DNA from: Neotamlana sargassicola
GTDB lineage: Bacteria > Bacteroidota > Bacteroidia > Flavobacteriales > Flavobacteriaceae
DNA: 64,000 bases
Assembly (NCBI RefSeq): GCF_020523965.1
Contig: NZ_JAJAPX010000003.1
Span: forward strand, 248,001-312,000
Direction of reading: 5' to 3'
The notes under the pieces are model-generated. The model saw only the letters and a list, made by a program, of their open reading frames with translations, searched no databases and was not told the DNA's origin. Of this stretch, positions 1,366-49,069 are shown one piece after another; positions within the stretch are counted from its first letter, which is position 1, and each line of letters opens with the position of its first letter. The position numbers and the translations under genes were made by a program.

Positions 1366-1474
1366 GTTTTTTATCTACAAACTTTATTTCGAATTATTTA
1401 GATAATAATATTTTTAAGTTTGGACTTGAAATTTGATGATTTTCGATGTCTTCCAGCATTAAAGCCAACTAAAT

Positions 1475-4250: not shown

Positions 4251-4252
4251 AA

Positions 4253-4369
4253 TTAAAAAGCTCGCATGATTAAGTAAAAAATAACAAGATATGCCAAATT
4301 AGCGATTAAAACTATGGAGTATAATTTTAACCAAGGTTGTTTGGTGTTGTTTTCGTTTTCTGGGGTCAT
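4253..4369 (-). CDS. 38-residue single-span membrane peptide, translationally coupled
   Basis: This small gene encodes MTPENENNTKQPWLKLYSIV and then a hydrophobic stretch ending YLIMRAF: a charged N-terminus followed by one membrane span of about 18 residues. Its ATG overlaps the stop of the PIG-L gene as TAATG, and its TAA ends two bases before the symporter ATG. That tight packing on both sides, plus the polar-then-hydrophobic composition, supports a real gene although it is very short. Small peptides of this kind are often companion subunits of transporters; here that role with the SSS symporter is an inference from position only. Confidence 0.7.
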   Translation of the reverse strand: MTPENENNTKQPWLKLYSIVLIANLAYLVIFYLIMRAF

Positions 4370-6894: not shown

Positions 6895-6918
6895 AATGTT
6901 GATTGGTTTGATAGCTAT

Positions 6919-6926
6919 CAAATATA
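6919..6926 (-). promoter_or_regulatory. Candidate -7 box for the PIG-L operon
   Basis: Minus-strand TATATTTG, matching TAnnTTTG, 25 bp upstream of the ATG at 6894. It overlaps the alternative upstream start codon at 6921 and so argues against it. Confidence 0.6.
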
Positions 6927-6954
6927 AAAAAGAAACCAGCAGAATAGCTGGTTT
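6924..6954 (-). terminator. Rho-independent terminator of the 6988 lipoprotein gene
   Basis: On the minus strand an 8-bp stem AAACCAGC/GCTGGTTT closes a 6-base loop (stem 6933-6954) and is followed by CTTTTTT. It also partly overlaps the PIG-L promoter. Confidence 0.75.
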
Positions 6955-6987
6955 TAAAATTTCTTTAACGATTTAAAACATTAATTA

Positions 6988-7455
6988 TTAAATACGTTTA
7001 TAGTTTATATTTTTTTCCTCTGGCTCTGCGGGTATTAAAGGTTGATTTTTGTTAAAGAATAATTGTTGAATAGAGTCCATACGTTTCATCATGCTTTTTA
7101 TTTGTTGGTCTTGATTGGTAAAACCATCAAAAAAGAAGTTTTTATGATTAAAACTTCCATTTATGGAATCGGTTTTAAAAAAATCATCGAAAAATGAATC
7201 GCTAAAAATAGAATGATTTTTAAAATGTTGTTGAAATTGAAGTTTAAGGCTATCATTAATTTTATTACCAGAAGAATAGCTATAAGAATAAATAGAATCG
7301 TATTTAATTAAATTACCAAATTCATCATACTCCTTATTTACTTGTACGTTTTCGTTGGGCTTAAGGTGGGAATCTGTTTTATTTTGCTGTTTTTCTTGTG
7401 AAGAACAGCTATTGCATAGTAAAAATAAAATCGGAATAACTTTAAGTGTTTTCAT
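6988..7455 (-). CDS. Hypothetical lipoprotein
   Basis: I do not recognise this 155-residue protein. It begins with a lipoprotein signal (MKTLKVIPILFLLCNSC), giving a probable lipidated Cys at residue 17. The mature part is polar, rich in Asn, Lys, Ser and Phe, with KEYDEFGNLIKYDSIYSYSY, a pattern seen in secreted Bacteroidetes proteins, and repeated DSFFDDFFKTDS and MKRMDSIQQLF segments. It is likely anchored in the outer or inner membrane facing the periplasm. It lies alone between the CorA operon and the PIG-L operon, with its own terminator downstream. Confidence 0.65.
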   Translation of the reverse strand: MKTLKVIPILFLLCNSCSSQEKQQNKTDSHLKPNENVQVNKEYDEFGNLIKYDSIYSYSYSSGNKINDSLKLQFQQHFKNHSIFSDSFFDDFFKTDSINGSFNHKNFFFDGFTNQDQQIKSMMKRMDSIQQLFFNKNQPLIPAEPEEKNINYKRI

Positions 7456-7537
7456 TATTTGTACATTTTAAATTAAACAAATTTTTAAGAATTCATTTTC
7501 AAAAAATATACCAAATGAAAAAATGACAGTTAAAATT

Positions 7538-8614
7538 TTACAACCACTTTTTACGTTTAAAATAATACATCATACCTAAAAATATAGCAATCATTACGCC
7601 CCAAACTACAAAATAGCCGTTTTTATAATGTAATTCCGGAATGTATTGAAAATTCATACCGTAAATGCCAGCAATAAAAGTAAGCGGAATAAAAATAGAA
7701 GCCATTATGGTAAGTACTTTCATAACTTCGTTCATTTTATTGCTAATGGTTGTCATGTACATATCCATTAAACTCCAAACCATTTCGCGATAAATTTCAA
7801 TGTTTTCGGAAACTTGAATTAAATGATCGTAAATATCGCGGTAATAGGTAATTGTTTTTGGTTTAATTAAGGTGTTCTCGTTTTTTTCGATGCGATTTAA
7901 AATTTCACGCAAAGGAAACATGGCGCGACGCACTCTTAAAATTTCTCGTTTTAAATTTTGAATATTCTGGCTAGTGTCGTCTTGCACGTTTCCTGAAAAA
8001 ATATCGCTTTCAAAATCTTCAATTTTATTGCCTAAAACTTCAATAACGCTAAAATAATGATCGACAATGGCATCCATTAATGTGTAAAGTAGGTAATCGG
8101 ACTGCATGTTTCGAATGCGACCTTTGGCATGGCGTAAACGATCTCTTACCGAATCGAATACATCGCCTTCGGCTTCTTGAAAACTAAGCACATAATCTTC
8201 TCCAAGAATAAAGCTAACCTGTTCTGAAATTATCGTGTCGTTCGCGTCGTAATACAACATTTTTAACACTACAAAAATATAATCGTCGTATTCATCTATT
8301 TTTGGGCGTTGCGAGGTGTTTACAATATCTTCTAAAACTAATGGATGTAATTCATAATGCTCGCCAATTTTTTCAATTGTATCTACATGGTTTAAACCAT
8401 TAACATTTATCCAGGTTATGGTTCCTGCTTTAAAGGAAAAGCATTCTTCAACATTTGTGAGTTCTTTTTCTATGCAGCTTTCTTTATTATAATCGAAAGA
8501 TTCAATAAAAAGCTTTTGGTCGGTTTTTTTTCCGGTATAAATAACACTTCCAGGGATTTGACCAATGCTTTTTTTAGAAAAAAGATGTCGAACTTTCTTA
8601 GCCTTTTTAATCAT
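7538..8614 (-). CDS. corA: Magnesium/cobalt transporter CorA
   Basis: A 358-residue CorA-family channel for Mg2+ (also Co2+ and Ni2+). The cytosolic funnel domain covers roughly residues 1-290. The two C-terminal membrane helices start with VLTIMASIFIPLTFIAGIYG, and the signature GMN is at about residues 319-321, followed by the periplasmic loop and the second helix VVWGVMIAIFLGMMYYF with a basic tail KRKKWL, all as expected. Length is normal for the family. It is the last gene of the leftward operon, 23 bp after the MscS-like gene, an arrangement that joins ion homeostasis genes. Confidence 0.95.
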   Translation of the reverse strand: MIKKAKKVRHLFSKKSIGQIPGSVIYTGKKTDQKLFIESFDYNKESCIEKELTNVEECFSFKAGTITWINVNGLNHVDTIEKIGEHYELHPLVLEDIVNTSQRPKIDEYDDYIFVVLKMLYYDANDTIISEQVSFILGEDYVLSFQEAEGDVFDSVRDRLRHAKGRIRNMQSDYLLYTLMDAIVDHYFSVIEVLGNKIEDFESDIFSGNVQDDTSQNIQNLKREILRVRRAMFPLREILNRIEKNENTLIKPKTITYYRDIYDHLIQVSENIEIYREMVWSLMDMYMTTISNKMNEVMKVLTIMASIFIPLTFIAGIYGMNFQYIPELHYKNGYFVVWGVMIAIFLGMMYYFKRKKWL

Positions 8615-8637
8615 AAAGTGCTGATATTATTTAATAA

Positions 8638-9177
8638 TCAAATGGTGTTACTATCATCTTCCTGCAATTCTACAATAGCGTCTTTTTTAATTAAAGTTAC
8701 CGCTTTTTGCAGCATAAGATTGTTAGGATATGTTACTAAATCGCCGTTTTCTAATCGTAATATAAGTTGAAATGCTCTAATATCTTCAATAATTACAATC
8801 TCTGGGAAATCGCTATCATGAATTTTAATTTTATCGCCCACTTTATAGGGAAAATTAAAAAACATGATTATTCCAGATGTAATGTTGCTTAAAATAGACC
8901 AGATGGCAAATAATGCAATACCAATAACTGTAAAAACAGAAGAGAAAAAGAAAGCTAAGTCTTTAAAATTTATAAAAATTACACCTTCAATTAAAACAAA
9001 TATAATTATTAGTGTTACCGTAAAGTAGCGCTGAATTAATCTAATTCTGGCATCATTAATACCATTTTTTTTAGCAATTTTAGTTACAGCATAGCTTACA
9101 ATTATTTTTATTAAAATGATTGAAGCTAATACAATAGCCGAAATTATGAGTTCGTTTTTATATTCAACAAGTAGCAT
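8638..9177 (-). CDS. Short MscS-like mechanosensitive channel family protein
   Basis: 179 residues. An N-terminal membrane span (about 9-30) is followed by two more (about 47-67 and 75-105), the last of which, GIALFAIWSILSNITSGII, resembles the pore-lining TM3 helix of MscS. After it comes FFNFPYKVGDKIKI, the entry to the beta domain, and then IVIIEDIRAFQLIL and NGDLVTYPNNLML. The protein stops soon after the beta domain, so it lacks the large C-terminal cage domain of E. coli MscS; short forms like this are common in the phylum. It probably gates a small membrane conductance, but that is family inference. Confidence 0.85.
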   Translation of the reverse strand: MLLVEYKNELIISAIVLASIILIKIIVSYAVTKIAKKNGINDARIRLIQRYFTVTLIIIFVLIEGVIFINFKDLAFFFSSVFTVIGIALFAIWSILSNITSGIIMFFNFPYKVGDKIKIHDSDFPEIVIIEDIRAFQLILRLENGDLVTYPNNLMLQKAVTLIKKDAIVELQEDDSNTI

Positions 9178-9187
9178 GTAATAGTAA

Positions 9188-10126
9188 TTAGTTTAAAAGC
9201 AGAGAGTCTCTAAGCGATTCGTTTTCAATACTTTTTTTGTTCCAATAATCGGTTTTTATTGTTTTTAGTTTGGTGGCTTTGGTGGCGTTGTTATTAACGG
9301 TTTCTTCCCAACTCACAATATCGAACGGAAATTTTGCATTAAAATTTATGGTTAATGTGCGATTTAATTCCGGATAATCAATTTTATACCAATCTGAACC
9401 AAGTGTTGCTTTTGCTTTGTAGGCTTTAAGTGTAAAATGCTGCAGTCTAATGGTTTCTAACGATGGAATTATTTGCAATTCGCCTGTTGGTAATAATTTA
9501 GGGTTTACGCGAAGTTGTACCCATAATTCGTTTTCTAAAATATTTTTGGTTAATGTAGTTGTATTATCGGCTTCTGTTTCAAAATATGAATGTGTGGTAA
9601 TTTCAAAATCATCTTTATTATTAAGTTGCGTGTACACGTGTCCGCACCATTCTTGAATAGATGCCGAAACTTTTAAAGCATGTTTATTGTTTGCTACAGG
9701 ATAAAATGTGCTTTGCATAATGGAATATGGGTAAATTCCTGTTACAAAATTTTTAGTCGCATTCAGTTTTAAAACAGGCGTGTTTTCTTTACTGTAATTA
9801 TCTGCTTTTACTTGTTTTTTGGGTAAAAAATCTTCAGTTACATAAACTAAAACGGCTGTACCTTCACGAAGTTGGCCATAGCGGTATTGCTGTAGTTTAT
9901 ATGATGAAATTTCAGCTTCACTGGCATACCAATATGTTTTAAAGTCTTTTGAAAGTGGTTGTTTTGGTTTGGTAATGTTGTTAACAGAATCTGTTGTTTT
10001 TTTTGAATTTATAACTGCCGCTAGTTTTGCGGTATTTTCACTTTCAGATTTGCAAGCAGTTAAAATAACCAAAAGAAAAATACAACCTGAAAGCAATTTT
10101 TGATGTTTATTTAAAGAGAAAAGCAT
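9188..10126 (-). CDS. Hypothetical lipoprotein encoded next to maf
   Basis: 312 residues; the function is not known to me. A lipoprotein signal (hydrophobic stretch about residues 12-25 ending LLVILTAC) places the lipidated Cys near residue 25. The mature part is beta-rich, with YRYGQLREGTAVLVYVTEDF and SIQEWCGHVYTQLN. It sits between maf and the MscS-like gene, 10 bp before the latter and 26 bp after the former, so it is cotranscribed. A homologue in this position is common in Flavobacteriaceae, where automatic annotation often carries over the 'septum formation' label from Maf, which this protein does not deserve. Confidence 0.7.
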   Translation of the reverse strand: MLFSLNKHQKLLSGCIFLLVILTACKSESENTAKLAAVINSKKTTDSVNNITKPKQPLSKDFKTYWYASEAEISSYKLQQYRYGQLREGTAVLVYVTEDFLPKKQVKADNYSKENTPVLKLNATKNFVTGIYPYSIMQSTFYPVANNKHALKVSASIQEWCGHVYTQLNNKDDFEITTHSYFETEADNTTTLTKNILENELWVQLRVNPKLLPTGELQIIPSLETIRLQHFTLKAYKAKATLGSDWYKIDYPELNRTLTINFNAKFPFDIVSWEETVNNNATKATKLKTIKTDYWNKKSIENESLRDSLLLN

Positions 10127-10152
10127 AATTTTTTATTTAAAATTACGAATAA

Positions 10153-10743
10153 TTAAGCTTCAATTAAATCATTTAACGTTTTATAAAGAAGGTGCACAGG
10201 TAACCCCATTACATTAAAATACGAACCTTCTATTTTGGTTACTGCAATTTGGCCAATCCACTCTTGTATGCCATAAGCGCCAGCTTTATCAAAAGGTTTA
10301 TAAGTGTTAATATAATAATTAATTTCGGCATCTGTTAAAGTTTTAAATGTCACTTTAGTAACATCGAACAGAGTTTTTTGAAAACTTGTGGATGTTACAC
10401 AAATAGAACTTATGACCTCGTGTGCACTGTTGCTCAGAGCTTTTAAAATACTAAAGGCTTCAGCAGCATCGTAAGGTTTTCCCAAGGCTTTATTGTTGTG
10501 CCAAACTATGGTGTCGCTGGTTATTAAAATATCGTTTGGCTTTAATTCGGGTTTATAAGCTAAGGCTTTTAATTCGGCTAAATAATTACTAATTTCAAAA
10601 TGCGTTAATCGGTTCGGGTATTCTTCTTTAATAGATTTTAATCGAATTTCGAATTTTAGGCCTAAGTCTTTTAAAAATTGTTGTCTTCTTGGAGAGCCAG
10701 AAGCTAATATAATATTATGATTTTTAAGTTTTTCTGAAAGCAT
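10153..10743 (-). CDS. maf: Maf family nucleoside triphosphate pyrophosphatase
   Basis: A 196-residue cytosolic enzyme that hydrolyses non-canonical or excess nucleoside triphosphates (dTTP, UTP or modified bases) to monophosphates. The family signature ASGSPRRQQFLKDLGL stands near the N-terminus; SDTIVWHNNKALGKPYD contains the catalytic Asp region, and KAGAYGIQEWIG and IEGSYFNVMGLPV are the conserved C-terminal motifs. Its ATG shares one base with the stop of the preceding UbiA gene. The older name 'septum formation inhibitor' refers to a Bacillus phenotype. Confidence 0.95.
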   Translation of the reverse strand: MLSEKLKNHNIILASGSPRRQQFLKDLGLKFEIRLKSIKEEYPNRLTHFEISNYLAELKALAYKPELKPNDILITSDTIVWHNNKALGKPYDAAEAFSILKALSNSAHEVISSICVTSTSFQKTLFDVTKVTFKTLTDAEINYYINTYKPFDKAGAYGIQEWIGQIAVTKIEGSYFNVMGLPVHLLYKTLNDLIEA

Positions 10744-11666
10744 TAGTTTAAAATTTCATACTTATATAAAAGTAAGGAAAGCATCCCAAAAACCAATACT
10801 ATTTTATAAAGATTGCTTAAATGTTTAAAGGCCTTTTTATCGTTAGAGCTATATGTTTTAATGGCGATATATAATAAAGGCGCAATAACAAACAGTAAAA
10901 AATAAATTACCGCAATCGTGTTTTTGTATAACTGATTAATAACATGTATAATGATAAGAATTAGCGGAATAAAATTTAAAATTGCCAAAAGTATTTTCGT
11001 GTTTTTAAGGCCAAAAACGATAGGTAAGGTTGCCATATTAGCCTCTAAATCGCCTTCGTAATCTTCTAAATCTTTTGCAATTTCTCGAAGTAAATTAATG
11101 CAGAATGCAAATGCAGAATAATTAAAAATTAACTTAAAAAAAGTAAGCTGAATAGTTCTGTTGTCTAGAGTTAAACTGGGTATTAGCTCAAAAACACCAA
11201 CAATTAAAATGCTAAAACCAACTAATGCAGAAATTACCATATTGCCAATTAATGCATAGCGTTTTAAGTAATTAGCATACACATAAAGTAAAACCGAAAC
11301 TATTATAAATATTGAAAAGAAAGCAGGTTTATCAATAATATTCGACACATAAAACCCGCAAACAACGCCAATAACATTTAAAATAATAAAGGCGTTAAAA
11401 GCCACATTTTCTGGTATAAGTTTACCAATTATAACTTTGTTTGGTTTGTTAATTAAATCGGTTTCAACATCGTAAATGTCGTTAATTATATTGCCTGCCG
11501 CAGCAATACAAACGGTAGCTAAAATTAAAATTGAAAATTGAAAAATATTGAGACTTGTTTGCACACCAAAAGCCTCTAAAAGAGCATATTTTACTAATAA
11601 TTGCGATAATACAATTATTAATAAGTTTTTATAACGGATAAGTTTAAAAAATGCAACCAATAACAT
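10743..11666 (-). CDS. UbiA-family prenyltransferase, probable geranylgeranylglycerol-phosphate geranylgeranyltransferase-like
   Basis: 307 residues with eight or nine membrane spans. The first Asp-rich motif is NDIYDVETDLINKPNK near residues 64-79, the second is KDLEDYEGDLEANMATLP near 198-215; both bind the Mg-diphosphate of a prenyl donor. Members in Bacteroidetes are usually labelled as digeranylgeranylglyceryl-phosphate synthase-like, by similarity to an archaeal lipid enzyme; the true acceptor in this organism is not evident. Its ends share single bases with the KdsC-like gene upstream and maf downstream, so the three are translationally coupled. Confidence 0.85.
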   Translation of the reverse strand: MLLVAFFKLIRYKNLLIIVLSQLLVKYALLEAFGVQTSLNIFQFSILILATVCIAAAGNIINDIYDVETDLINKPNKVIIGKLIPENVAFNAFIILNVIGVVCGFYVSNIIDKPAFFSIFIIVSVLLYVYANYLKRYALIGNMVISALVGFSILIVGVFELIPSLTLDNRTIQLTFFKLIFNYSAFAFCINLLREIAKDLEDYEGDLEANMATLPIVFGLKNTKILLAILNFIPLILIIIHVINQLYKNTIAVIYFLLFVIAPLLYIAIKTYSSNDKKAFKHLSNLYKIVLVFGMLSLLLYKYEILN

Positions 11667-12196
11667 TAATCGTTTTTAGCCGAGAAATTTCCAGCCCATT
11701 TACCTTGTACTTTTAAAACCTGCTCGATAACATCTCTAGCAGCGCCTTTACCACCTTTTTTATGAGAAATGTATTTAGAAACATTTTTAACCTCTGGCAC
11801 AGCATCTTGTGGGCAACATGGTAAACCAACAACTTGCATTACAGGAATGTCGGGCATATCGTCGCCCATGTAAAGTATATTTTCTGCTTTAATATTTTGT
11901 GTGGCTAAATAATCGTTAAACTCATTAATTTTTTCATGAGCATTTAAATATATGGCCTTAACACCTAAACCTTCTAAACGTTTTTTTACACCTTGGTTAG
12001 TTCCTCCGGTAATTACACAAAAGTTAAAACCACGTTTTATTGCTGTTTTAATAGCATAACCATCTTTTACATTCATGCTTCTAAGTAATTCCCCATCATT
12101 AGAAACCAATACGGTGCTGTTGGTAAGTACACCATCAACATCGAAAATAAAAGTTGTAATATGTTCTAAATATTCTTTATAGCTTTTTTCTTCCAT
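11666..12196 (-). CDS. kdsC: KdsC-like HAD phosphatase (3-deoxy-D-manno-octulosonate 8-phosphate phosphatase)
   Basis: 176 residues, the expected size of KdsC. HAD motif I is FIFDVDGVLTNS (catalytic Asp pair DxD), motif II is VITGGT, and the loop YMGDDMPDIPVM is motif IV; the C-terminal CCPQDAVPEVK is also characteristic. The enzyme removes phosphate from KDO-8-P in lipopolysaccharide core synthesis. It overlaps the DUF2520 gene upstream by 20 bp and shares a base with the UbiA gene downstream. A close relative acting on other keto-sugar phosphates cannot be excluded. Confidence 0.88.
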   Translation of the reverse strand: MEEKSYKEYLEHITTFIFDVDGVLTNSTVLVSNDGELLRSMNVKDGYAIKTAIKRGFNFCVITGGTNQGVKKRLEGLGVKAIYLNAHEKINEFNDYLATQNIKAENILYMGDDMPDIPVMQVVGLPCCPQDAVPEVKNVSKYISHKKGGKGAARDVIEQVLKVQGKWAGNFSAKND

Positions 12197-12944
12197 GTGT
12201 TATTTGAATAGATTCTGTTAACAACTTATAAATAGTTTCGTGATGTTCGCTATTTAAAAGTTTTAAGTGATTTTTTATGGTTTTTTTATCGTTTCGCTTT
12301 GCAGGACCAGTTTGTGCCATGTAAGGCGAGTGGTCTTGTACTTTTAAAGCGGTTTCTAAAATTAATGGCTTTAGTAAATCGAATTCGGCACCTTCGCTCT
12401 CGGTAATTTCGTGTGCAACACGATATAATTGATTGGTGAAATTATTAACAAAAACGGCTGCTAAATGTAAAACACCTCGCTGATTACTATTTACTTTTTT
12501 TGTTGGACTACCCAAACTAATCGCGATGGCTTTTAAAGTATGATAACACGGTTTTTCAATGGTTTCAATACAAATGGGTACGTTTGCAAAATCTATTTTA
12601 GCATTTTTACTAAAGCTTTGCAAGGGGTAAAATACGCCACGTTTGTGTTTTTTGTCTAAATCGTGAATATTGACACTTCCAGACGTGTGAACCACTAAAC
12701 GATTTTCAAATGGTAACTGCGACGACAATTCTGAAACGGCATCATCACTAACGGCTAAAATATAAACATCGGCTTCAACTAAATCGTTTAAATTATCTGT
12801 TATTTCAACATCATTTTTAAACGATGAAATCGATTTAATATTTCTGTTATACCATTGTTTTACACTAACCTCATTGCTTTTTTGTAAAGCTTTAAATAAA
12901 TGTGTGGCTACATTACCAGCACCCAAAATTACTACTGAAATCAT
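12177..12944 (-). CDS. Rossmann-like and DUF2520 domain protein
   Basis: 255 residues from the ATG at 12944. A longer frame begins at 12971, but a -7 box lies between the two, so the shorter form is chosen. The N-terminal Rossmann fold opens ISVVILGAGNVATHL, an NADP-type binding loop, then YILAVSDDAVSE and VVHTSGSV. The helical DUF2520 half includes RGVLHLAAVFVNNFTNQLY, like ketopantoate-reductase and F420-oxidoreductase relatives. It is the first gene of the leftward operon that ends with corA. The substrate is unknown. Confidence 0.85.
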   Translation of the reverse strand: MISVVILGAGNVATHLFKALQKSNEVSVKQWYNRNIKSISSFKNDVEITDNLNDLVEADVYILAVSDDAVSELSSQLPFENRLVVHTSGSVNIHDLDKKHKRGVFYPLQSFSKNAKIDFANVPICIETIEKPCYHTLKAIAISLGSPTKKVNSNQRGVLHLAAVFVNNFTNQLYRVAHEITESEGAEFDLLKPLILETALKVQDHSPYMAQTGPAKRNDKKTIKNHLKLLNSEHHETIYKLLTESIQITHGRKKL

Positions 12945-12948
12945 TTCG

Positions 12949-12956
12949 CAAAAATA
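12949..12956 (-). promoter_or_regulatory. Candidate -7 box for the DUF2520-to-corA operon
   Basis: Minus-strand TATTTTTG, four bases before the ATG at 12944. At that distance transcription would begin at or next to the start codon, giving a nearly leaderless mRNA. Confidence 0.55.
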
Positions 12957-12988
12957 GAAATAAAAGATCAATAAGTAAGTGATTCTTG

Positions 12989-12996
12989 TATCTTTG
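12989..12996 (+). promoter_or_regulatory. Candidate -7 box for the truncated haemoglobin gene
   Basis: TATCTTTG matches TAnnTTTG and ends six bases before the ATG at 13003. It lies inside the longer reading frame beginning at 12979, which is therefore unlikely to be used in full. Confidence 0.55.
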
Positions 12997-13002
12997 TTTT
13001 AT

Positions 13003-13389
13003 ATGAAAAAAGCCGATTTACAAACTAGAGCAGATGTGTATTTATTAGTGTCGTCATTTTATGAAAAAGTAAAAAATGATGCGGTTTTGGCACCATTTTT
13101 TGAAGGTGTAGAAAATTGGGATTTGCATTTAGAAAATTTAACCAGTTTTTGGGAGTCGAGTTTGTTTTTAAAAACAAAATATTATGGCGACCCTTTAGAG
13201 CAGCATATTAAAGTTGATCAACAGAACAGCAATTTAATAACACAAGAGCACTTTGGCTTATGGTTAAATTTATGGTTAGAAACTGTTAATGAGTTATTTG
13301 AAGGTGAATATGCAGAAATAGCCAAAAATAGAGCCCGCAAAATGAGTACTTTTTTGTATTTGAAAATTTTTGAGGCAAGAATGGAGTAG
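13003..13389 (+). CDS. Group III truncated haemoglobin
   Basis: 128 residues from the ATG at 13003. The N-terminal DVYLLVSSFYEKVKNDAVLAPFF and the segment WDLHLENLTSFWESSLF match bacterial group III globins (trHb3), including the conserved 'FW' in helix E/F. The expected proximal His is in EQHIKVDQQN or the later EHFGLWLNLW; the latter fits the F-helix better. A role in binding oxygen or nitric oxide in the cytosol is family knowledge. It diverges from the DUF2520 gene and lies just upstream of cytochrome c assembly, which suits a respiratory or nitrosative-stress role but does not prove it. Confidence 0.87.
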   Translation: MKKADLQTRADVYLLVSSFYEKVKNDAVLAPFFEGVENWDLHLENLTSFWESSLFLKTKYYGDPLEQHIKVDQQNSNLITQEHFGLWLNLWLETVNELFEGEYAEIAKNRARKMSTFLYLKIFEARME

Positions 13390-13547
13390 TTGCTTGTTGG
13401 TCTTTGGTGTTGTTCTGTTTAGTTTGCGGTGTGTTGTTTTCTAATTTAGATTTTAACGCAACCAGAAACCAGCAACAAGCAACGTGTAACCAAAAGAAAC
13501 AACCTTTATTAAGTTAATTTTAACACCCGCAAATAAACATAATTGGT

Positions 13548-13555
13548 TAAATTTG
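13548..13555 (+). promoter_or_regulatory. Candidate -7 box for the ResB-CcsA gene
   Basis: TAAATTTG, 27 bp upstream of the ATG at 13583. The rest of the 13390-13582 gap is low-complexity sequence with CAGCAACAAGCAAC-like repeats and no gene. Confidence 0.5.
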
Positions 13556-13582
13556 CAAAACCTTTAAAAAAAGGGTGAAATT

Positions 13583-16500
13583 ATGCAAAATAAACTAGCC
13601 AAAATTCTCTTTTCAACACGTCTTACCGCCATTTTATTTATTGTTTTTGCCGCTGCTATGGCAACAGGTACATTTTTAGATGCCGGACAAGAAACATCGC
13701 CAACACCATATACACGAAATTTAATTTACAACACCTGGTGGTTCGAAGCTATTATGGCTGTATTCCTAATTAATTTTATTGGAAATATTAAGCGCTACAA
13801 CCTGCATAAAAAAGAAAATTGGGCAACTTTTATATTGCATATTGCCTTTATTTTCATTCTTTTAGGAGCATTTATTACGCGTTATACTGGGTTTGAAGGT
13901 ATGATGGCAATTCGAGAAGGAGCAACAGAAAGTTCATTTTTATCAAGAGAAACATATATTACGGCCTATATTGATGGTGATTATGAGATTGATGGTGTTC
14001 GCCAAAGGTTAACTGTTCAAGATAAAGTTGATTTTTCAGGAAGAATGGATAACGATTTTAGCTTAGAAACTAAATACAACAATCAGCCAGTTAGTTTTGA
14101 GCTAGAAAAATTTGTTGTTGGTGCAGAAAAAGATATCGTGCCGGATGAAACCGGAGAATCTTACCTAAAACTAGTTGAAGCTGGACAAAACGGACCACAT
14201 AATCATTTTTTAAAAGAAGGTCAAGTAGCAAGTATACACAACATACTTTTTGCACTAAATAAACCAACGCCTGGTGCTATAAATATTACAAATTATGGCG
14301 ATTCTTTAACTATCAATTCTCCTTTTGAAGGTGAGTATATGGTTATGGCAACTATGGCACAGGGTAAGTTAATTAAAGATACCATACAACCATTAGCATT
14401 AAGAGCTAGATATGTAATTGGTAACATGCAAGTGGTGTTTCCTAAACCTGTAGTTAAAGGTGTGTTCGATGTGGTTAAAAAATCAGAGTTATTTAAAAAC
14501 GATGAAGATGGTGTGGTTTTAAACGTTACTGCAAACGGAGAAACTAAAAAGGTAGGATTAATAGGTGGCATGGGAACCAATAGTAAATTTGAGCAAATTG
14601 AAGTTGGAGGATTAGAAATTGCTTTAAACTACGGCTCGAAAGTTTTAGAATTACCATTTTCTGTGAAGCTTAACGATTTTGAAGCTGAAAAATATCCTGG
14701 AACCGAAAAACGCTATTCTGCTTATTCAAGTGAAGTTACGGTTATTGATGAGGAAGCTGAAAGTTTCGACTATAAAATATTTATGAATAACATTTTAGAT
14801 TATAAAGGCTATCGGTTCTTTCAATCTGGTTTCGATCCTGACGAAAAAGGAACAATACTATCTGTAAACCATGATTATTGGGGAACTATGATAACCTATT
14901 TTGGGTATTTAATGTTGTATTTAGGCCTAATGGCTATTTTATTTACTAAAAGTTCGCGTTTTGGCGATTTAAAAAAGCAATTAGATAAGGTTAAAGCCAA
15001 AAAAATAAAAGCCGCCACTATTTTATTGTTATTTGTTGGTTTACATGGTTTAGCTCAAGAACATTCTGCTAACGATGGACATAATCACAGCACGCCACAA
15101 AAATCAAGTAAATCTCAAATAGACTCGCTTTTAAAGGCTAATGTTTCTCCAAAAGATCATGCCGATGAGTTTGGGCATTTGGTAATTCAAGATTTAAGTG
15201 GTCGTATGATGCCTGTTAACACTTATGCTTCAGAGTTGTTAAGAAAGCTAAGTAAAAGCGATGCATACGAAGGTTTATCTGCAGATCAAGTATTTCTTTC
15301 AATGCAAGAAAGTCCGGTATTTTGGTACAATGTGCCAATTATTTATTTGCGTCCAATGGAAACCGATTCTTTAAGAACTATAATTGGTGTACCTAAAGAA
15401 GGAAAACATTTTGCTTTAAACGATTTTATAAACGAAGATGGTTCATATAAATTAAGTCCGTATTTAGAGGAAGCTTACAGTGCTTCAATTCCTAACGGAT
15501 ATCAGAAAAAAATAAAAGAAACAGACGAACGAGTTACTTTACTCTATAATACCATTCAAGGCGCATCTTTAAAATTATTTCCAATTCCAGAGGACGAAAA
15601 CAATAAATGGATTTCTTCCTACGAATACAAATTAGGTGCAGTCCCTATACAAGATTCGCTTTATGCCAATTTTATAAAAAATGGATTAGAGGTATACTTA
15701 TATACTTTAAATCAAGCTAAACAATCGGGTGATTTTTCTCAAGCTTCAAAAATTGTGGAGTCCTTTAAAAAAACTCAGCAAAAGTACGGTGGAGAGGTTA
15801 TGTTAAGCGATAAAAAAATTAAAACTGAAATACTTTATAACAAATACGACATTTTTAAGAAGTTGTTTAGTTGGTATATGTATGCAGGTACTTTAATGTT
15901 TATTTTAATTATAATTCAAATATTTAAAGATAAAAGCAAAGCATTAAACGTATCGGTTAATATTTTTAAGTTTATTATTTATGGCGTTTTTATTTTACAC
16001 ACGGCTGGCTTAATAGCACGTTGGTATATATCTGGTCATGCGCCATGGAGTGATGCCTACGAGTCTATGATTTACGTAGCTTGGGCAACTATGTTTTTTG
16101 GTTTAGCCTTTGGTAGAAAAAGTGATTTAACTTTAGCTTCAACAGCATTTGTTACTTCCATGATTTTAATGATTGCACACTGGAATTGGATGGATCCAGC
16201 AATTGCTAATCTACAACCTGTTTTAAATAGTTATTGGTTAATGATTCACGTTGCAGTTATTGTTGCTAGTTACGGTCCATTTACTTTAGCTATGATTTTA
16301 GGTGTTGTGTCACTATTTTTAATGGCATTTACCAATAAAAATAATAAAGCTAAAATGGATTTAAACATTAAAGAACTTACAATAATTAACGAAATGGCTT
16401 TAACTGTTGGTTTAGTTATGCTAACTATTGGTAACTTTTTAGGTGGTATGTGGGCTAACGAAAGTTGGGGACGTTACTGGGGTTGGGATCCTAAAGAAAC

Positions 16501-16777
16501 TTGGGCTTTAATTAGTATTATGGTTTATGCCTTTGTAATACACATGCGTTTGGTTCCTGGTTTACGTGGGCGTTGGATTTATAACTTATTATCCATAGTT
16601 GCTTTTGCAAGTATAATGATGACTTATTTTGGTGTTAATTTCTACTTAGCAGGTTTACACAGTTATGCAAGTGGCGATCAAATTGTAAGTTTAAAATTTA
16701 TAGGTATTGCTTGTGGAATAATTGCTATTTTAGGTTTTGTTAGCTACAGAGGCTATGCAAAGTTTTACAAAAAGTAG
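13583..16777 (+). CDS. ccsA: Cytochrome c biogenesis protein, ResB-CcsA fusion
   Basis: A 1064-residue membrane protein of system II cytochrome c maturation, which carries haem across the inner membrane and attaches it to apocytochromes. The N-terminal ResB-like half has spans near residues 15-30, 50-65 and 75-95, a large periplasmic region, and a span around 435-460 after DYKGYRFFQSGFDPDEKGT. A second periplasmic region, rich in His near residue 500 (EHSANDGHNHS), links to the CcsA half. CcsA motifs are GHAPWSDAYESMIYVAWA and the haem-handling WGRYWGWDPKETWAL near residue 970, followed by a conserved His. Fusion of the two halves is normal in Bacteroidetes. Confidence 0.93.
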   Translation: MQNKLAKILFSTRLTAILFIVFAAAMATGTFLDAGQETSPTPYTRNLIYNTWWFEAIMAVFLINFIGNIKRYNLHKKENWATFILHIAFIFILLGAFITRYTGFEGMMAIREGATESSFLSRETYITAYIDGDYEIDGVRQRLTVQDKVDFSGRMDNDFSLETKYNNQPVSFELEKFVVGAEKDIVPDETGESYLKLVEAGQNGPHNHFLKEGQVASIHNILFALNKPTPGAINITNYGDSLTINSPFEGEYMVMATMAQGKLIKDTIQPLALRARYVIGNMQVVFPKPVVKGVFDVVKKSELFKNDEDGVVLNVTANGETKKVGLIGGMGTNSKFEQIEVGGLEIALNYGSKVLELPFSVKLNDFEAEKYPGTEKRYSAYSSEVTVIDEEAESFDYKIFMNNILDYKGYRFFQSGFDPDEKGTILSVNHDYWGTMITYFGYLMLYLGLMAILFTKSSRFGDLKKQLDKVKAKKIKAATILLLFVGLHGLAQEHSANDGHNHSTPQKSSKSQIDSLLKANVSPKDHADEFGHLVIQDLSGRMMPVNTYASELLRKLSKSDAYEGLSADQVFLSMQESPVFWYNVPIIYLRPMETDSLRTIIGVPKEGKHFALNDFINEDGSYKLSPYLEEAYSASIPNGYQKKIKETDERVTLLYNTIQGASLKLFPIPEDENNKWISSYEYKLGAVPIQDSLYANFIKNGLEVYLYTLNQAKQSGDFSQASKIVESFKKTQQKYGGEVMLSDKKIKTEILYNKYDIFKKLFSWYMYAGTLMFILIIIQIFKDKSKALNVSVNIFKFIIYGVFILHTAGLIARWYISGHAPWSDAYESMIYVAWATMFFGLAFGRKSDLTLASTAFVTSMILMIAHWNWMDPAIANLQPVLNSYWLMIHVAVIVASYGPFTLAMILGVVSLFLMAFTNKNNKAKMDLNIKELTIINEMALTVGLVMLTIGNFLGGMWANESWGRYWGWDPKETWALISIMVYAFVIHMRLVPGLRGRWIYNLLSIVAFASIMMTYFGVNFYLAGLHSYASGDQIVSLKFIGIACGIIAILGFVSYRGYAKFYKK

Positions 16778-16782
16778 AAAAA

Positions 16783-17661
16783 ATGAATGTTCGCCTTTTT
16801 AAAGTTTTAAATAAGTTAAAAGTTTTTAAATATTTAAGCTTTAAAAAGGAAATCACCCTTAATAACAAGCAAATTACAGTTCCTGTTTACGATAATATGG
16901 GGCAAGCTTATTTGTTCGATTTTGAGCCTTGGATGCTTAGTTTGCTTAATACTATTTCTCCATTTATTACAAATAGTTTTGTTGATGTTGGCGTAAATAT
17001 TGGTCAGACTTTATTGAAGGTTAAAAGTGTTTCACCTACAATTAACTACATTGGTTTTGAGCCAAATCCTGATTGTTATAACTATTTAAAACGATTAGTA
17101 GCTTTAAATAATTTTACTAATACTCGCATTTTTCAATTTGGCATTTCAAACGAAGTAGGAGATGGGGCTTTGTACTTTTCAAATAATAGTAAAACAGATC
17201 CTTCGGCTTCAATAGTAAATGGTTTTAGAAATCAGTCTTCAATAAAAAAAAGTATTGATGTGCCTTTAACAACTTGGAACTCTATTAATGGTAAACATAA
17301 TTTTGATACTGTTTCTGTTTTAAAAATTGATGTGGAAGGTGGTGAATTAGAAGTTTTAAATAGTTTTAAAAGTTGTTTAATTAATGATAAACCCATCATT
17401 ATAATAGAAATTTTACCAACTTATACTCCTGAAAATAGTTTTAGAATTAACCGACAACGTAAAATTGAAGCATTATTAAAGGAGTTAGATTATATCATAT
17501 TTAGAGTAATAAAAAAGAATAACGATTTACAAGGTTTTAAAAAGTTAGATGCCATTGAAGTACATGACAATATTAGTTTATGCGATTATGTTTTAGTGCC
17601 AAAAACTAAAGAAGCAGATTTTTATAAATGCGTTAAAAACTTCCTAAATAAGGTGTATTAA
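16783..17661 (+). CDS. FkbM family methyltransferase
   Basis: 292 residues. A Rossmann-type SAM-binding start, SFVDVGVNIGQTLLKVKS, lies near residues 66-83, then YIGFEPNPDCYNYLKRL (acidic residue for the ribose hydroxyls), and the FkbM hallmark VLKIDVEGGELEVL near residues 180-193. Such enzymes O-methylate sugars or natural products; the substrate here is unknown. The gene starts five bases after the ResB-CcsA stop, so it is probably cotranscribed, although no functional link is evident. Its 3' end overlaps the convergent DUF3307 gene by 18 bp. Confidence 0.88.
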   Translation: MNVRLFKVLNKLKVFKYLSFKKEITLNNKQITVPVYDNMGQAYLFDFEPWMLSLLNTISPFITNSFVDVGVNIGQTLLKVKSVSPTINYIGFEPNPDCYNYLKRLVALNNFTNTRIFQFGISNEVGDGALYFSNNSKTDPSASIVNGFRNQSSIKKSIDVPLTTWNSINGKHNFDTVSVLKIDVEGGELEVLNSFKSCLINDKPIIIIEILPTYTPENSFRINRQRKIEALLKELDYIIFRVIKKNNDLQGFKKLDAIEVHDNISLCDYVLVPKTKEADFYKCVKNFLNKVY

Positions 17662-42005: not shown

Positions 42006-42020
42006 TTTTTTATTAGAAGC

Positions 42021-42090
42021 TAATCCCGCTTTCCGCTATATCTTTTTTGCTTTTAATGGCAAAAAAGGATGCCGCTTCAATCGGGGCTAG
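42021..42090. repeat. Probable dispersed palindromic repeat
   Basis: The core is CTTTTTTGC, an 8-base loop, then GCAAAAAAG (9 bp, 42042-42067), flanked by AATCCCGCTTTCCGCT and GCCGCTTCAATCGGGGCTA. I recall similar 'CCCGC ... GCGG' spacers recurring in Flavobacteriaceae genomes. No gene overlaps it. Confidence 0.55.
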
Positions 42091-42110
42091 GGGTAAACCA
42101 ACAAAAAATG

Positions 42111-45121: not shown

Positions 45122-45186
45122 ACAACGGTAACATATAAGAATAGTAGCGGATTTTATGAGCTTACCTTTCAGTATGTTACTGTTGT
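45122..45186. repeat. Imperfect palindrome with 14-bp arms at the edge of the RT island
   Basis: ACAACGGTAACATA (45122-45135) pairs with TATGTTACTGTTGT (45173-45186): 13 Watson-Crick pairs and one G-T. The loop of 37 bases holds a further TAAG/CTTA pairing. The ends ACAAC/GTTGT recur in spacers around accessory genes of the phylum (from memory). Confidence 0.7.
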
Positions 45187-45273
45187 TTAATTTATAAATT
45201 TAGTTTTGTTTAAGCGATTAACCGCTATTATTTTTATACAATGTTGTAGCTAGTACATTTTATTAGTTTAATT

Positions 45274-45379
45274 AAAAGTAGCCCCTGACTCAGACTACTT
45301 TTTAGTAAGAACTCAGCTATAGAGTTTGCTTACACCGTTTGTGTGTGTCGCTATTGCTAGCTGTCAGTTACGGTATGCC
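45274..45379 (-). ncRNA. Candidate non-coding RNA of the DRT3-like system, with ACACACAC loop
   Basis: Minus-strand sequence directly after the Drt3b-like stop. A 10-bp stem, AACT plus CAGCTA against TAGCTG plus AGTT with a 2-base bulge (45310-45319 with 45358-45369), encloses a 38-base loop containing ACACACAC (complement of 45341-45348). It is followed by a terminator-like hairpin with arms AAAAGTAG/CTACTTTT (45274-45281 with 45295-45302). DRT3 systems are known to include an RNA, and as I recall its template segment is an AC repeat used to make GT repeats. The location and exact ends here are inference. Confidence 0.55.
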
Positions 45380-47521
45380 TTAATACACTTCTTGACTTCT
45401 TTTAGCTTGGAGTTCTAATCCAAAATCAAACTCTGTCCATTTTGTAAACCAGAATTTTTCTTGCTCAATTAATGTAATTTGATTGTCCTGAATATCGACT
45501 AAAGATAACAATTCTTTTTTGTACTTATATTTTTCATCTTTTAACTCTTTAATATAGATTTTTAAACTTTTTGAACCTCTTGTTTTAGCATCTTTAACTT
45601 TCCATTTAAGATGTGACCTGACTTCGTTATTTAGATATGGGCAAGTCATTATATCAAAAAAAAGTAATATTAATTCTGTATCATCTTTCCAGCCATAAAT
45701 TTTACCTGTTTTAAATTTTTCTAGAATAACATTTTTCAACTCTTCCAAAATAGGAGAGTAAGCTTTAATGTTTTTAATATAAAAGAGCAAAACAGTTATT
45801 GAAAAATAGTTTAATTCACTATTAAAATTTACAGAATCATTTTGTTTAATTGTTGCATTAAAGTATGAGCATAAAACATTTATATTTAATCTATATTCCC
45901 TTCCTAATTGACTTAATGCAATTAAGAGATAAAGCGTCTCAATTTGAGTTTCTTTTTTGCTTTTATTTTTGTTAAGAATTAAATTTATTTCATCTGATAT
46001 TTTTTTGAAAATGTTATGTTTATTATTAGAAGTGAAAGGTTCTTTATATTGATTTGTTTTGTTTTTTTTCAAAAAACTATTAATTCTGTCAATTATTAGA
46101 CAAACTTTGATTGTTGAATTAACTTTGGGTGAAACAGAGTATAAAAAAAATGTTACATCAAGAATTTCTAAAAACCCTTTTTCAAATTCTTTTTGAGTTT
46201 TAATGGTGATTTCTTCTTCAAAATTTTTATACTTTTTGATTAATTTTTTAGTTTTATTATCTAGGACAGCCAATGTGTAATTCATTATGTCCTTGTATTC
46301 TACTTCAGATTCTTTAATGATTGATTTAAATCGAGTTATTACATTATTAGAACTGAAATATAGTATTGAATTTGATTGCTCATTCTCTTCTTCTATTATT
46401 TCTTTTTCTTTTAAAACTAAATGATTATTAAAGAGGTCATTTATTTTTTGTTTAGCAATACTTATTTCAGTAATTATTGGCTTGGAATATAATAATGACT
46501 TTTTATCGTTCAAGTACATTTTGTACTCTTTTAATGATAACTTAAATGCTTCAGTTATTTTATCAATCTGTGATTCTTCATTGTAAAAGATAAAGTAGTC
46601 ATCTACATATCTAAAAATCTCATAATCGACCTTATGTATTAAATTACTTCCTTTAGAATCTATTGATTTTAGTCTTTCGTAGATATTAACATCTATTTGT
46701 TGTAAAATCAATTCGGCAAATATTCTTGAAAATTCAGGTCCAATAATAATCCCATTTGTTTCATTTGCATTTAGGTCTTGCATTATACAATCAAACTTAC
46801 CACCAAAAGTAGCTTCTAGTGAATTAATATTTGATTTAACTATTCTTTTGTTTGTTAATGCCCAAGGAAGAGTATGAGTGTATATGCTATCGAAACATTT
46901 TGTGATATCTATTTTTAGTAGTTTATTATACTTTTTTTCGCTTCTATGAAATTGATATGATTCATAAAATTTATGGATGTTACTGTATTTTCTGTAACTA
47001 AAAAATGATTTTAAGTTTTCGTACTCACTATCATCTTGTTCAATTTGGGAGTGTTGCAAGTCTTTATCTTCATTTCTTTTATGAAGTACATCATTGTAAA
47101 ATGTAAAATTTGCTACCTTGGATGGCTTTCTAATTGAAAAAGGACTTAATGAGGAATAATAGACTATTATGTTTTTATATTTTTCATAAAAGTCTACCAT
47201 CTTACGTTGGCTAACAGGATGAATTACGCATAATTCCCTAAAATCATTTTTTTTATGTGTGATATTAAACCTAAATGGTTTAGTCTTTTCCTTAACACCA
47301 AAAAGAATTGATTCTATTTCAGAGTATGCTTTTCCGTATTTTAATTTATAATCGGCTTTCTCTTTACCTTTTAACTTGTTATGTTTGTTATGGAATTTTT
47401 GACTGTTTATTAAATATTTATAAAAATATCTATTGGAAAAAGTTACTGGTGTTTCATACGGTAAAACATCCGACAAAACAACTCGTTCTTTGGAATATGA
47501 TATTGGAATTTTCTTTTTCAT
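45380..47521 (-). CDS. drt3b: Reverse transcriptase, probable Drt3b (second RT of DRT type 3 defense)
   Basis: 713 residues. The RT core has motif A KIDITKCFDSIY (Asp 205), then GIIIGPEFSRIFAELILQQ (motif B-like), and FRYVDDYFIF (YVDD 305-308), so the two catalytic aspartates are intact. An N-terminal region (1-190) and a long helical C-terminal region (about 350-700) flank it; neither shows a nuclease, maturase or integrase signature. It follows the first RT with a single base between, so they are cotranscribed and probably coupled. Two different RTs in tandem is the layout of DRT3 (UG3 + UG8), an anti-phage system; the larger second one fits Drt3b. It is more A+T-rich than its neighbours. 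Confidence 0.82.
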   Translation of the reverse strand: MKKKIPISYSKERVVLSDVLPYETPVTFSNRYFYKYLINSQKFHNKHNKLKGKEKADYKLKYGKAYSEIESILFGVKEKTKPFRFNITHKKNDFRELCVIHPVSQRKMVDFYEKYKNIIVYYSSLSPFSIRKPSKVANFTFYNDVLHKRNEDKDLQHSQIEQDDSEYENLKSFFSYRKYSNIHKFYESYQFHRSEKKYNKLLKIDITKCFDSIYTHTLPWALTNKRIVKSNINSLEATFGGKFDCIMQDLNANETNGIIIGPEFSRIFAELILQQIDVNIYERLKSIDSKGSNLIHKVDYEIFRYVDDYFIFYNEESQIDKITEAFKLSLKEYKMYLNDKKSLLYSKPIITEISIAKQKINDLFNNHLVLKEKEIIEEENEQSNSILYFSSNNVITRFKSIIKESEVEYKDIMNYTLAVLDNKTKKLIKKYKNFEEEITIKTQKEFEKGFLEILDVTFFLYSVSPKVNSTIKVCLIIDRINSFLKKNKTNQYKEPFTSNNKHNIFKKISDEINLILNKNKSKKETQIETLYLLIALSQLGREYRLNINVLCSYFNATIKQNDSVNFNSELNYFSITVLLFYIKNIKAYSPILEELKNVILEKFKTGKIYGWKDDTELILLFFDIMTCPYLNNEVRSHLKWKVKDAKTRGSKSLKIYIKELKDEKYKYKKELLSLVDIQDNQITLIEQEKFWFTKWTEFDFGLELQAKRSQEVY

Positions 47522-47522
47522 T

Positions 47523-49004
47523 CTACAAGTTTTTCCAGATTTGAGTCATTTTTCCATTTTTGTATGATTTTGTATTAAATCTTACTAGGCTTTTTGTTTT
47601 AAAACCATTTTCAAAAGACATCTTTTTTAGTTTATCGATAAGTTGACCATTTGTAGAAGAAGGTAATGCTGTTATTTTACCTTTTAAGTACTTGTCGAGT
47701 TTTTTTAAATCAGAATAAGGTATACTTAGAAACTCATTAGAAAAATAAATACCAATAAAAACATTACTTTTCCTTCTTAGTAGTTGATGATTATTAGTTA
47801 AGAACTTTATTCGTTTTAATAGCATTCTTTCAGTTGAGCTTTTCTTAGCTGAATATTTTGCAATTGAAGTATAATAATCTGAAAATGAATTGTCTATTTT
47901 TTTCTTATACCTTTCTAATTTGTCATCAGACATGAAGATTTGAATATCATCTTTGGTAATTGATTTCTCTTTTTTACTGTAAGATATTATAAATTTATAG
48001 CCTAAATATGTTAATTCATATTTGATAGATCTTTTTCTGTCTTGATTGTTCGGTGTCAGGTCAATTACCTTTGTTTTGATTGTGTTTATTTTTAATCTGG
48101 TTGAACTTAATAAGATGTTTTTAACTTCATTTTTATAAGTTTTAATTGACTTACTTTCATTTTTATGATTAGGAGTTATTATGATAACAATGTCATCTAC
48201 ATATCTACAGTAATAGGTTACGTTATTTAATGATTTAACTTTTTTATCAAAACGTCTTAAATATAATTCAGCTAAATAAGCACTAAATCCGATACCTCTT
48301 GGTATTCCTACACGTTCATCATCATTTGTTTTTATCCCGTCTGTTATTAATATTTTCCAGTATTGGTTTAAAACTTGTCTTATGATTTTCTTAGAAGGAT
48401 AGCTAAGTAGACTATTTTCTTCAATTTTGGCTAAAAGTTCCTTATGTGGGATGGACTCGTAGAATTTTTTAATGTCTGTCCTGATAATTATTTTAGGAAA
48501 GCCATCATCAAGTAATAATTTTAATTGGTCAACAATTACCTTTCTGTTAGCTTGTTTAACTTTAAATGTTTTATAGATGTTTCTCTGTAACTGTTTAGTA
48601 ACAAAATAATTTTCAGGATTATGTTCAATCTCATATAATTGACTACCCCACTTTATTTGTCCTTTTTTGATTTTTAATTCATAATCTTCAACATCTGTTT
48701 TTTCTGCTATTTTTATTAAAATGTTTTCAAGTTCTTTTTCTCTAGTTTTTTTAAGTTCGTCCTTCTCTGAGTTTAACTTATCAAGTTTTGTGTAATCCCT
48801 ATCTTCGATTTTCGTTATCGACTTTACTTTGTAAGCCTCTTCCCTTATTTCTTTATTTTTTGCAATTATAGAGTCGGAAACCTCTCTTGATTTTTTAAAA
48901 ATGTCTGTATTGAAAAATACTTTATCTTCAAGGTAACGACCTTTCCTATTTTCAACATCAAGGAGTATTCTAAAATTTTCATATGAGAATGATTGGTCTA
49001 GCAT
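47523..49004 (-). CDS. drt3a: Reverse transcriptase, probable Drt3a (first RT of DRT type 3 defense)
   Basis: 493 residues. After a Lys/Glu-rich helical N-terminus (1-130) comes the RT palm: RTDIKKFYESIPH (Asp 177), GIPRGIGFSAYLAELYLRRF, and the catalytic YVDD at 268-271 (CRYVDDIVIII), then the TKVIDL strand and LTYLGYKF. The C-terminus (about 350-493) is a basic thumb-like helical region. It lacks the retron motifs I would expect (NAxxH, VTG) and any group II intron maturase X or endonuclease domain. It starts the two-RT operon. Size and order fit Drt3a. No -7 box was found in the 81-bp space upstream, so the promoter is unknown. Confidence 0.82.
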   Translation of the reverse strand: MLDQSFSYENFRILLDVENRKGRYLEDKVFFNTDIFKKSREVSDSIIAKNKEIREEAYKVKSITKIEDRDYTKLDKLNSEKDELKKTREKELENILIKIAEKTDVEDYELKIKKGQIKWGSQLYEIEHNPENYFVTKQLQRNIYKTFKVKQANRKVIVDQLKLLLDDGFPKIIIRTDIKKFYESIPHKELLAKIEENSLLSYPSKKIIRQVLNQYWKILITDGIKTNDDERVGIPRGIGFSAYLAELYLRRFDKKVKSLNNVTYYCRYVDDIVIIITPNHKNESKSIKTYKNEVKNILLSSTRLKINTIKTKVIDLTPNNQDRKRSIKYELTYLGYKFIISYSKKEKSITKDDIQIFMSDDKLERYKKKIDNSFSDYYTSIAKYSAKKSSTERMLLKRIKFLTNNHQLLRRKSNVFIGIYFSNEFLSIPYSDLKKLDKYLKGKITALPSSTNGQLIDKLKKMSFENGFKTKSLVRFNTKSYKNGKMTQIWKNL

Positions 49005-49035
49005 TTATAGGTTTCTTTATGTTTTTCTCGTATTG

Positions 49036-49043
49036 GCTACAAC
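49036..49043. repeat. GCTACAAC box, inverted partner of 45243-45250
   Basis: Together with GTTGTAGC at 45243-45250 it brackets the two RT genes and the candidate RNA. Similarity continues a few bases into GTAT on both sides after a 1-base gap. Confidence 0.45.
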
Positions 49044-49069
49044 TCGTATTATAAACACCTTCATTAAGT

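Follow-up and report, generated by a model that had tools for sequence, protein, structure and literature searches.

A predicted AC-template RNA with a conserved pseudoknot downstream of the drt3b gene of Neotamlana sargassicola

The drt3 genes and the adjoining predicted RNA

The window, i.e. the whole stretch of DNA that was analysed, comprises 64,000 nt of the marine flavobacterium Neotamlana sargassicola (GCF_020523965.1, NZ_JAJAPX010000003.1, 248,001-312,000, forward strand). It contains two reverse transcriptase (RT) genes, drt3a and, after 1 nt, drt3b, both on the minus strand and followed by a gene-free stretch in which an RNA of the DRT3 type is predicted (Table 1). An earlier note, made from the sequence alone, had called the genes DRT3 with RTs of the UG3 and UG8 classes, and rightly so: Drt3a reaches 421 bits against the NCBIfam equivalog NF041747 (cut-off 200) and Drt3b 815 bits against NF041748 (cut-off 350), both far past the cut-offs, and the PADLOC models are matched by both RTs (Drt3a at 1.5e-105). 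The genome holds a single Drt3b copy. Solved structures matched by sequence are PDB 9z6y (Drt3a/Drt3b; window Drt3a with an E value of 1.1e-19) and PDB 26cz (entitled SUMO / RNA-directed DNA polymerase), the latter of which is taken to be EcoDRT3b, judging from its length and residue numbering.

Table 1. Features of the DRT3 locus in window coordinates
Feature	Position	Strand	Description
drt3a	47523..49004	-	UG3 class reverse transcriptase, 493 aa, YVDD present
drt3b	45380..47521	-	UG8 class reverse transcriptase, 713 aa, YVDD 305-308
DRT3 non-coding RNA (predicted)	45274..45379	-	Ends inferred from structure; previously unannotated
P1	45334..45374	-	45374-45370 pairs with 45338-45334; encloses pseudoknot strand, P2 and template
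Pseudoknot 5' strand CUGAC	45363..45367	-	Pairs with 45289-45285
P2	45350..45361	-	4-bp hairpin, GCAA tetraloop, 1 nt upstream of template
AC-repeat template ACACACACA	45340..45348	-	Single-stranded between P2 and P1
P3	45305..45333	-	10-bp hairpin, 2-nt bulge, 7-nt loop
P4	45274..45302	-	11-bp 3' hairpin; loop carries pseudoknot 3' strand
Pseudoknot 3' strand GUCAG	45285..45289	-	In P4 loop

For Drt3b of EcoDRT3, the excerpted text of PMC13174585 names E22 as the deoxyadenosine gate, R71 as a helper, R241 as the deoxycytidine switch and Y666 as the priming residue. In an alignment to 26cz (tag offset 108) E22, R71 and R241 correspond to E23, R95 and R266 of the window protein and the YVDD motif to Y305-D308, while Y666, which lies beyond the aligned part of 26cz, corresponds to the last residue, Y713, according to position, alignment A1 and residue counts. 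Adjacent drt3a and drt3b genes above the cut-offs, a YVDD motif in both RTs and the gate and priming residues are thus all found in the window. Among 88 distinct DRT3b sequences R241 and the YxDD residues are conserved without exception, E22 is E in 82, D in one and a gap in five, and R71 is R in 82, N in one and a gap in five; the contig of one of the loci, L116, ends within it. In 86 sequences Y666 is conserved, whereas L046 has a gap there and L076 an A, although the L076 protein still ends in AY.

The AC run and the fold around it

For the comparison of loci one genome per species was sampled, which yielded 396 Drt3b relatives; the best 80 of these 396 were used and the set therefore leans to the window's own kind. 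Five further loci came from a search of the class, eight from plasmids and three from E. coli chromosomes, and the window was added. L002, L003 and L004 were dropped as contig duplicates and L031 because it reads like L121, leaving 93 distinct loci.

The run ACACACACA lies 31 nt past the stop codon of drt3b (45382-45380). Shuffled windows contain ACACACAC 0.88 times on average, so that the run is unremarkable alone and derives its significance from its position across relatives. On the coding strand, ACACAC occurs within 350 nt past the drt3b stop in 91 of the 93 distinct loci; in a set of 88 distinct loci it is present in the sense orientation in 86 and in antisense in 3. Same-length segments from elsewhere in the 88 loci, counted on both strands, contain it in 52 of 2498 cases (2%), and loci of other RT genes in 1 of 22 (24 loci were taken, two of which had no complete RT frame; in another two the sequence available downstream was shorter than 350 nt). 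The AC run after drt3b, on the right strand and adjoining the genes, is therefore present as the earlier note had it, and the loss from related loci which that note had named as evidence against the RNA is not what the 93 loci display.

Two loci are of interest in their own right. L111 (Candidatus Schmidhempelia bombi) carries CACACA, not ACACAC, 77 nt past its drt3b stop and is the sole locus with a full-length drt3b among the 93 in which the template is shortened, possibly to a minimum length. In L046 (Empedobacter brevis) the 3' end of drt3b is lost, and the priming tyrosine and the AC run have both gone together with this part of the unit. A degenerate pattern of the template flanks gave no match in the window.

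Loci with the template near the stop codon share one plan, consisting of P1, a short strand, P2, the template, the 3' strand of P1, P3 and P4, and the strand following P1 has its complement in the P4 loop, giving a pseudoknot of 5-7 bp. In the window, about 11 unpaired bases, ACACACACA among them, lie between P2 and P1, and both comparison and prediction place ACACAC in an unpaired loop beside a stem-loop. In the window and its 7 nearest relatives all helices taken together pair in 95.3% of cells (slid versions 28-49%), with two-sided changes in 15 of 32 pairs. In detail, P1 (five pairs, four with two-sided changes), P2 (two of four pairs), the pseudoknot (two of five) and P4 (eight of its pairs counted) pair in 100% of cells and P3 in 84.7% over nine pairs, with 87.5% at the outermost pair; the P2 loop is GNAA in all eight sequences. 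None of 500 shuffles reaches the percentage paired or the covariation score of this group; in the count of further pair types, shuffles do equally well (497 of 500 as high). Folded as a single sequence, the window RNA gives P1-P4 with modest stability (z -2.6, 3 of 200 shuffles as good), and for a longer stretch the values are z -2.1 and 8 of 200.

The same helices were counted in loci outside the window's group. Loci with the template no more than 50 nt past the stop were termed compact; 64 were found, and 48 remained after removal of 8 that were poorly aligned by eye and of the 8 of the window group. Pairs were counted on plain MAFFT alignments, which are blind to structure, with pair lists chosen from the alignments or from the window, and the invariance of the AC run in these alignments is there by construction, since the loci were selected through it. 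In the 48 loci 90.3% of cells pair compared to 38-50% when slid by 1-3 columns, a comparison which favours the chosen pairs because the lists were picked from the same alignments or the window, and none of 500 shuffles does as well. The single helices pair in 91.7% (P1), 89.9% (pseudoknot), 81.6% (P2), 85.2% (P3) and 98.8% (P4) of cells, six of seven pseudoknot pairs show two-sided changes and one pair occurs as five pair types. The two strands read CUGAC/GUCAG in the window, CCGAU/AUCGG in Pedobacter (L040) and CCGAC/GUCGG in Elizabethkingia (L043). In the mixed alignment A2 (56 loci) shuffles equal the observed count of further pair types in 404 of 500 cases; the counts for the window group are lowered there because this group is misaligned by about 5 columns.

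An additional comparison paired the 10 nt after P1 with the loop of the P4-side hairpin of either the same or another locus, in 90 of the 93 loci (L046 has no template, and L054 and L055 no P1 or hairpin by the rule used). The mean score was 12.7 for the own loop and 8.2 for permuted ones (sd 0.33, maximum 9.4 in 2000 permutations), and runs of at least 5 pairs were found in 67 of 90 own combinations compared to 24 swapped ones on average (maximum 33 in 200 permutations). The best run is below 5 pairs in 23 and below 4 in 15 of the 90 loci. Nine long or intermediate RNAs (L005, L033-L038, L119, L120) score 0-11, i.e. at the permuted level, some with weak runs of 5-6, and some compact loci also fail (L072 and L096, for example, score 0), partly because the script took a hairpin other than the aligned P4. 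An earlier version with the whole 5' segment gave 13.8 for own and 10.8 for swapped loops, 31 of 90 loci exceeding 95% of their swaps; it was weak because pairing was allowed anywhere and the hairpin was often not P4. Taken as a sequence signal, covariation supports the predicted helices P1-P4 and the pseudoknot.

The earlier note had drawn the AC run in the 38-nt loop of a different stem, in which AACT-(GA)-CAGCTA (45369-45358) pairs with TAGCTGAGTT (45319-45310) over 10 bp with a 2-nt bulge. This stem exists exactly as described and encloses the AC run. In the window and its 7 nearest relatives it pairs in 73.8% of cells (20-43% when slid), with two-sided changes in none of its 10 pairs and all 500 shuffles at least as good, and its bases overlap those of P2, P3 and a pseudoknot strand. 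It was therefore rejected as the working fold; relatives conserve a different fold in its place. The absence of the stem from related loci, one half of what the note had named as refuting evidence, thus holds for this stem. The accessibility of the AC run in a loop is upheld by comparison and prediction, be it within other helices. Of the terminator-like hairpin that the note had added, the 3' hairpin is present at 45302-45274, whereas a formal terminator scan does not list it.

Searches with a covariance model and the surroundings of the unit

The seed of a covariance model (R2) was the set of 48 loci, none of which belongs to the window's group. In the window it matches 45260-45384 (-) with 31 bits and a rough E value of 8.7e-7 (next best 11.2 bits), a match that is convincing only when position and score are taken together, since unrelated places in 395 genomes of the class reach 30.9 bits. 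Across the whole genome of N. sargassicola the window RNA takes the top place, followed by a match of 19 bits. All 8 members of the window group are found, the 7 others at 22-35 bits. Among the 45 sources outside the seed, these 7 included, 30 are matched at E<=1 and 26 at E<=0.01, an E. coli chromosome (L121) among them; the 15 that are missed are L005, L006, L032-L038, L046, L084, L110, L111, L119 and L120. Among the 395 genomes, 70 have a match at E<=0.01, and only G267 and G081 exceed 60 bits, both at DRT3 genes on the contigs of the seed members L047 and L055. Run with a stricter filter, this search reported neither the window's own RNA (G000) nor the DRT3 loci of G240, G057 and G032. As a genome-wide finder R2 is not specific below about 31 bits.

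A search of Rfam gave nothing at the site of the RNA and, in the window, only a Flavo-1 RNA and a tRNA. The Flavo-1 RNA (RF01705) is situated at 42018-42092 (-) with 69.8 bits, between genes which by eye we take to be PhoH-like and purC-like. The Bacteroidetes-type promoter element TAnnTTTG occurs neither in the last ~420 nt of drt3b nor upstream of drt3a, and sigma-70 matches are at chance level. Because P1 starts a few nucleotides after the drt3b stop codon, the RNA is probably cut from the drt3ab transcript or read through with it.

The unit of drt3a, drt3b and RNA (~3.86 kb) is 97.2% identical to Tamlana sedimentorum (L045), only over 45200-49056, and 92.6% identical to Mariniflexile gromovii (L044), only over 45259-49053; in tblastx, the flanking sequences retrieved for these two loci did not match the window. 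A 5' junction ...AG/TTG... is common to all three and lies at 49043/49042 in the window, and in a repeat search the ends of the unit were not marked by any clear pair of inverted or direct repeats. To the right of the RNA, the segment 45123-45245 is a repeat that recurs on another contig of the genome, C40 (76% over 127 columns, E value 5e-19). A recombinase near the repeats on C40 is XerA/integron-integrase-like with 217 bits (curated cut-off 220) and reaches 200 bits against the integron integrase model (cut-off 265). The limits of the unit, the shared junction and the repeat array near a recombinase suggest that DRT3 and its RNA may travel as an integron-like cassette. The literature listings on integron-borne DRT systems and on flavobacterial integrons contained, in the parts consulted, nothing decisive.

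C40 itself (1-17448; L143, L144) contains repeats with complementary ends that separate genes of almost uniform orientation, namely copies of the 45123-45245 element and a second, related element of ~125-165 nt, and may thus be an integron-like cassette array in a flavobacterium. One of its genes is, judging by its motifs, presumably a cytosine DNA methyltransferase.

Proposed function and relation to known systems

An AC-template RNA has already been published for DRT3 of E. coli (PMC13174585; Wang et al., preprint 2026). According to the excerpted text, an ncRNA downstream of drt3b carries a conserved 5'-ACACAC-3' loop from which Drt3a makes poly(dTdG); poly(dCdA) is the product of Drt3b, which uses no nucleic-acid template, starts from Y666 and is gated by E22 and R241, and the strands anneal. 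Truncated products are put down to read-through into the stem-loop next to the template, and mutations of the ACACAC loop abolish product and defence (PMC13174585). The mechanism which the earlier note had described, with one RT copying an AC template into GT repeats and the other making the AC strand untemplated, agrees with this part of the preprint.

The elements of this mechanism, i.e. the genes, the gate and priming residues, the AC run and the adjoining hairpin, are each kept in the window. By every feature tested at the level of sequence the predicted RNA is a DRT3 RNA, and its AC-repeat loop is almost certainly the template which one of the RTs copies into GT-repeat DNA; by analogy it would be made and would act as in E. 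coli. We put the probability that 45274-45379 (-) is a DRT3 template RNA acting as proposed, P1-P4 and pseudoknot included, at roughly 0.93.

Drt3a would copy ACACACACA 3' to 5' into (TG)n until stopped by P2, which is one base off the 5' side of the template and is probably the template boundary. The product would then slip back by dinucleotide units onto ACACACACA, as in the repeat addition of telomerase, giving poly(dTdG), and the uninterrupted run of nine letters may permit this slippage with no need of a separate alignment segment. By pairing the P1-side strand with the P4 loop, the pseudoknot would fold the 3' hairpin onto the template domain, hold it there and fix its position within the complex of Drt3a. 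In making the complementary poly(dCdA), Drt3b would be primed by Y713, with E23 and R266 as its gates, and the two strands would anneal.

Several other explanations have to be considered. A true DRT3 RNA might be part of a copy that is inactive in its present host, a recent cassette now silent or decayed; the near identity of the unit in two other records with unrelated flanks and the lack of a recognisable promoter in the TAnnTTTG and sigma-70 scans are in line with this. Both genes are however full length with catalytic, gate and priming residues, and both frames are also open in L045 at 97% nucleotide identity, making inactivity unlikely. That the RNA mainly scaffolds the complex, with templating secondary, is suggested by a 6:6:6 complex that has six copies of the RNA in its middle (PMC13314766, excerpted text), but is very unlikely as 91 of 93 loci retain the AC run although the helix sequences vary freely, and as the loop mutations in E. 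coli abolish product and defence (PMC13174585, excerpted text). An ordinary 3' untranslated region, with P4 terminating the drt3ab mRNA and an AC run that arose by chance, could draw on the chance frequency of ACACACAC given above and on the hairpin form of P4, but it is highly improbable given the sense AC run of other DRT3 loci, the covariation of P1, P2 and the pseudoknot, which would have no role in a plain terminator, and the absence of P4 from the terminator scan. Finally, the 38-nt-loop stem of the earlier note as the working fold is hardly credible, its complementarity being real and its excess over slid versions as expected for a stem taken from one member sequence, but with no two-sided change, no advantage over shuffles, no place in the minimum-energy fold and mutual exclusion with the supported P2, P3 and pseudoknot.

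With the DRT3 template RNA as the preferred reading, an RNA of an immune system explained only recently, with an RNA template for one strand and a protein template for the other, is now placed in a lineage unnamed in the main text of the preprint ('bacteroid' and 'flavobacter' both have 0 occurrences in that of PMC13174585), and its structure is open to compensatory swaps. Template and two flanking helices hold their position while the helix sequences vary, and a pseudoknotted template RNA of ~105 nt would be a useful minimal model for telomerase-like repeat synthesis. The word pseudoknot is absent from the main text of PMC13174585, the published covariance model was built from EcoDRT3 and close kin (PMC13174585, excerpted text), and the single use of 'pseudoknot' in the excerpted text of PMC12632851 concerns telomerase; besides that paper, 'DRT3' and 'pseudoknot' occur together in PMC12596737, which deals with DRT2. 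A compact pseudoknotted DRT3 RNA is not described in the literature compared, consulted in part and exclusive of the structural paper of Deng et al. 2026, and there is a real chance that this paper already shows the pseudoknot. We give even odds to the view that there is a widespread compact class of DRT3 RNAs, distinct from the E. coli satellite type and undescribed so far, which has a conserved pseudoknot core, a telomerase-RNA-like template core of ~105 nt, and a distribution over Bacteroidota, Proteobacteria and several other phyla.

E. coli itself has both RNA types, going by a plasmid and by the 3 genomes read out of 22 matching E. coli genomes. The long type (L119, L120) adjoins integrase and phage-polarity-suppression genes and is P4-satellite-like, and the compact type, with the template 41 nt past the stop, is found on a chromosome (L121) and on a plasmid (L031).

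Like the window RNA, the EcoDRT3 ncRNA lies on the same strand downstream of drt3b, has ACACAC in a loop and a stem-loop adjoining the template (PMC13174585, excerpted text). In the satellite-like E. coli loci L119 and L120, which are not necessarily the published EcoDRT3 strain, the template lies 91 and 128 nt past the stop instead of 31 nt as in the compact window RNA, the 3' hairpin is capped by a tetraloop, GAAA or GCAA, whereas the P4 loop of the window carries a pseudoknot strand, and no loop pseudoknot is seen above the permuted level, in contrast to the pseudoknotted window RNA. DRT2 likewise has an RT-bound, pseudoknotted ncRNA beside its gene (PMC12039810, excerpted text), but that RNA is copied by rolling circle and templates a repeated coding cDNA, in place of a short AC run (PMC13314766, excerpted text). 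The ncRNA of DRT10 shares the short template in a loop, the repeat addition and the hairpin as 5' template boundary, but differs in that homologs show little conservation of the template loop and the repeats are longer, and a partner of the Drt3b type is not described for it in the excerpted text of PMC12632851. Telomerase RNA, finally, has a template delimited by a boundary stem-loop or pseudoknot and used for repeat addition as well (PMC12632851, excerpted text), but serves another enzyme and another role, and its likeness to the DRT3 RNA is one of resemblance only.
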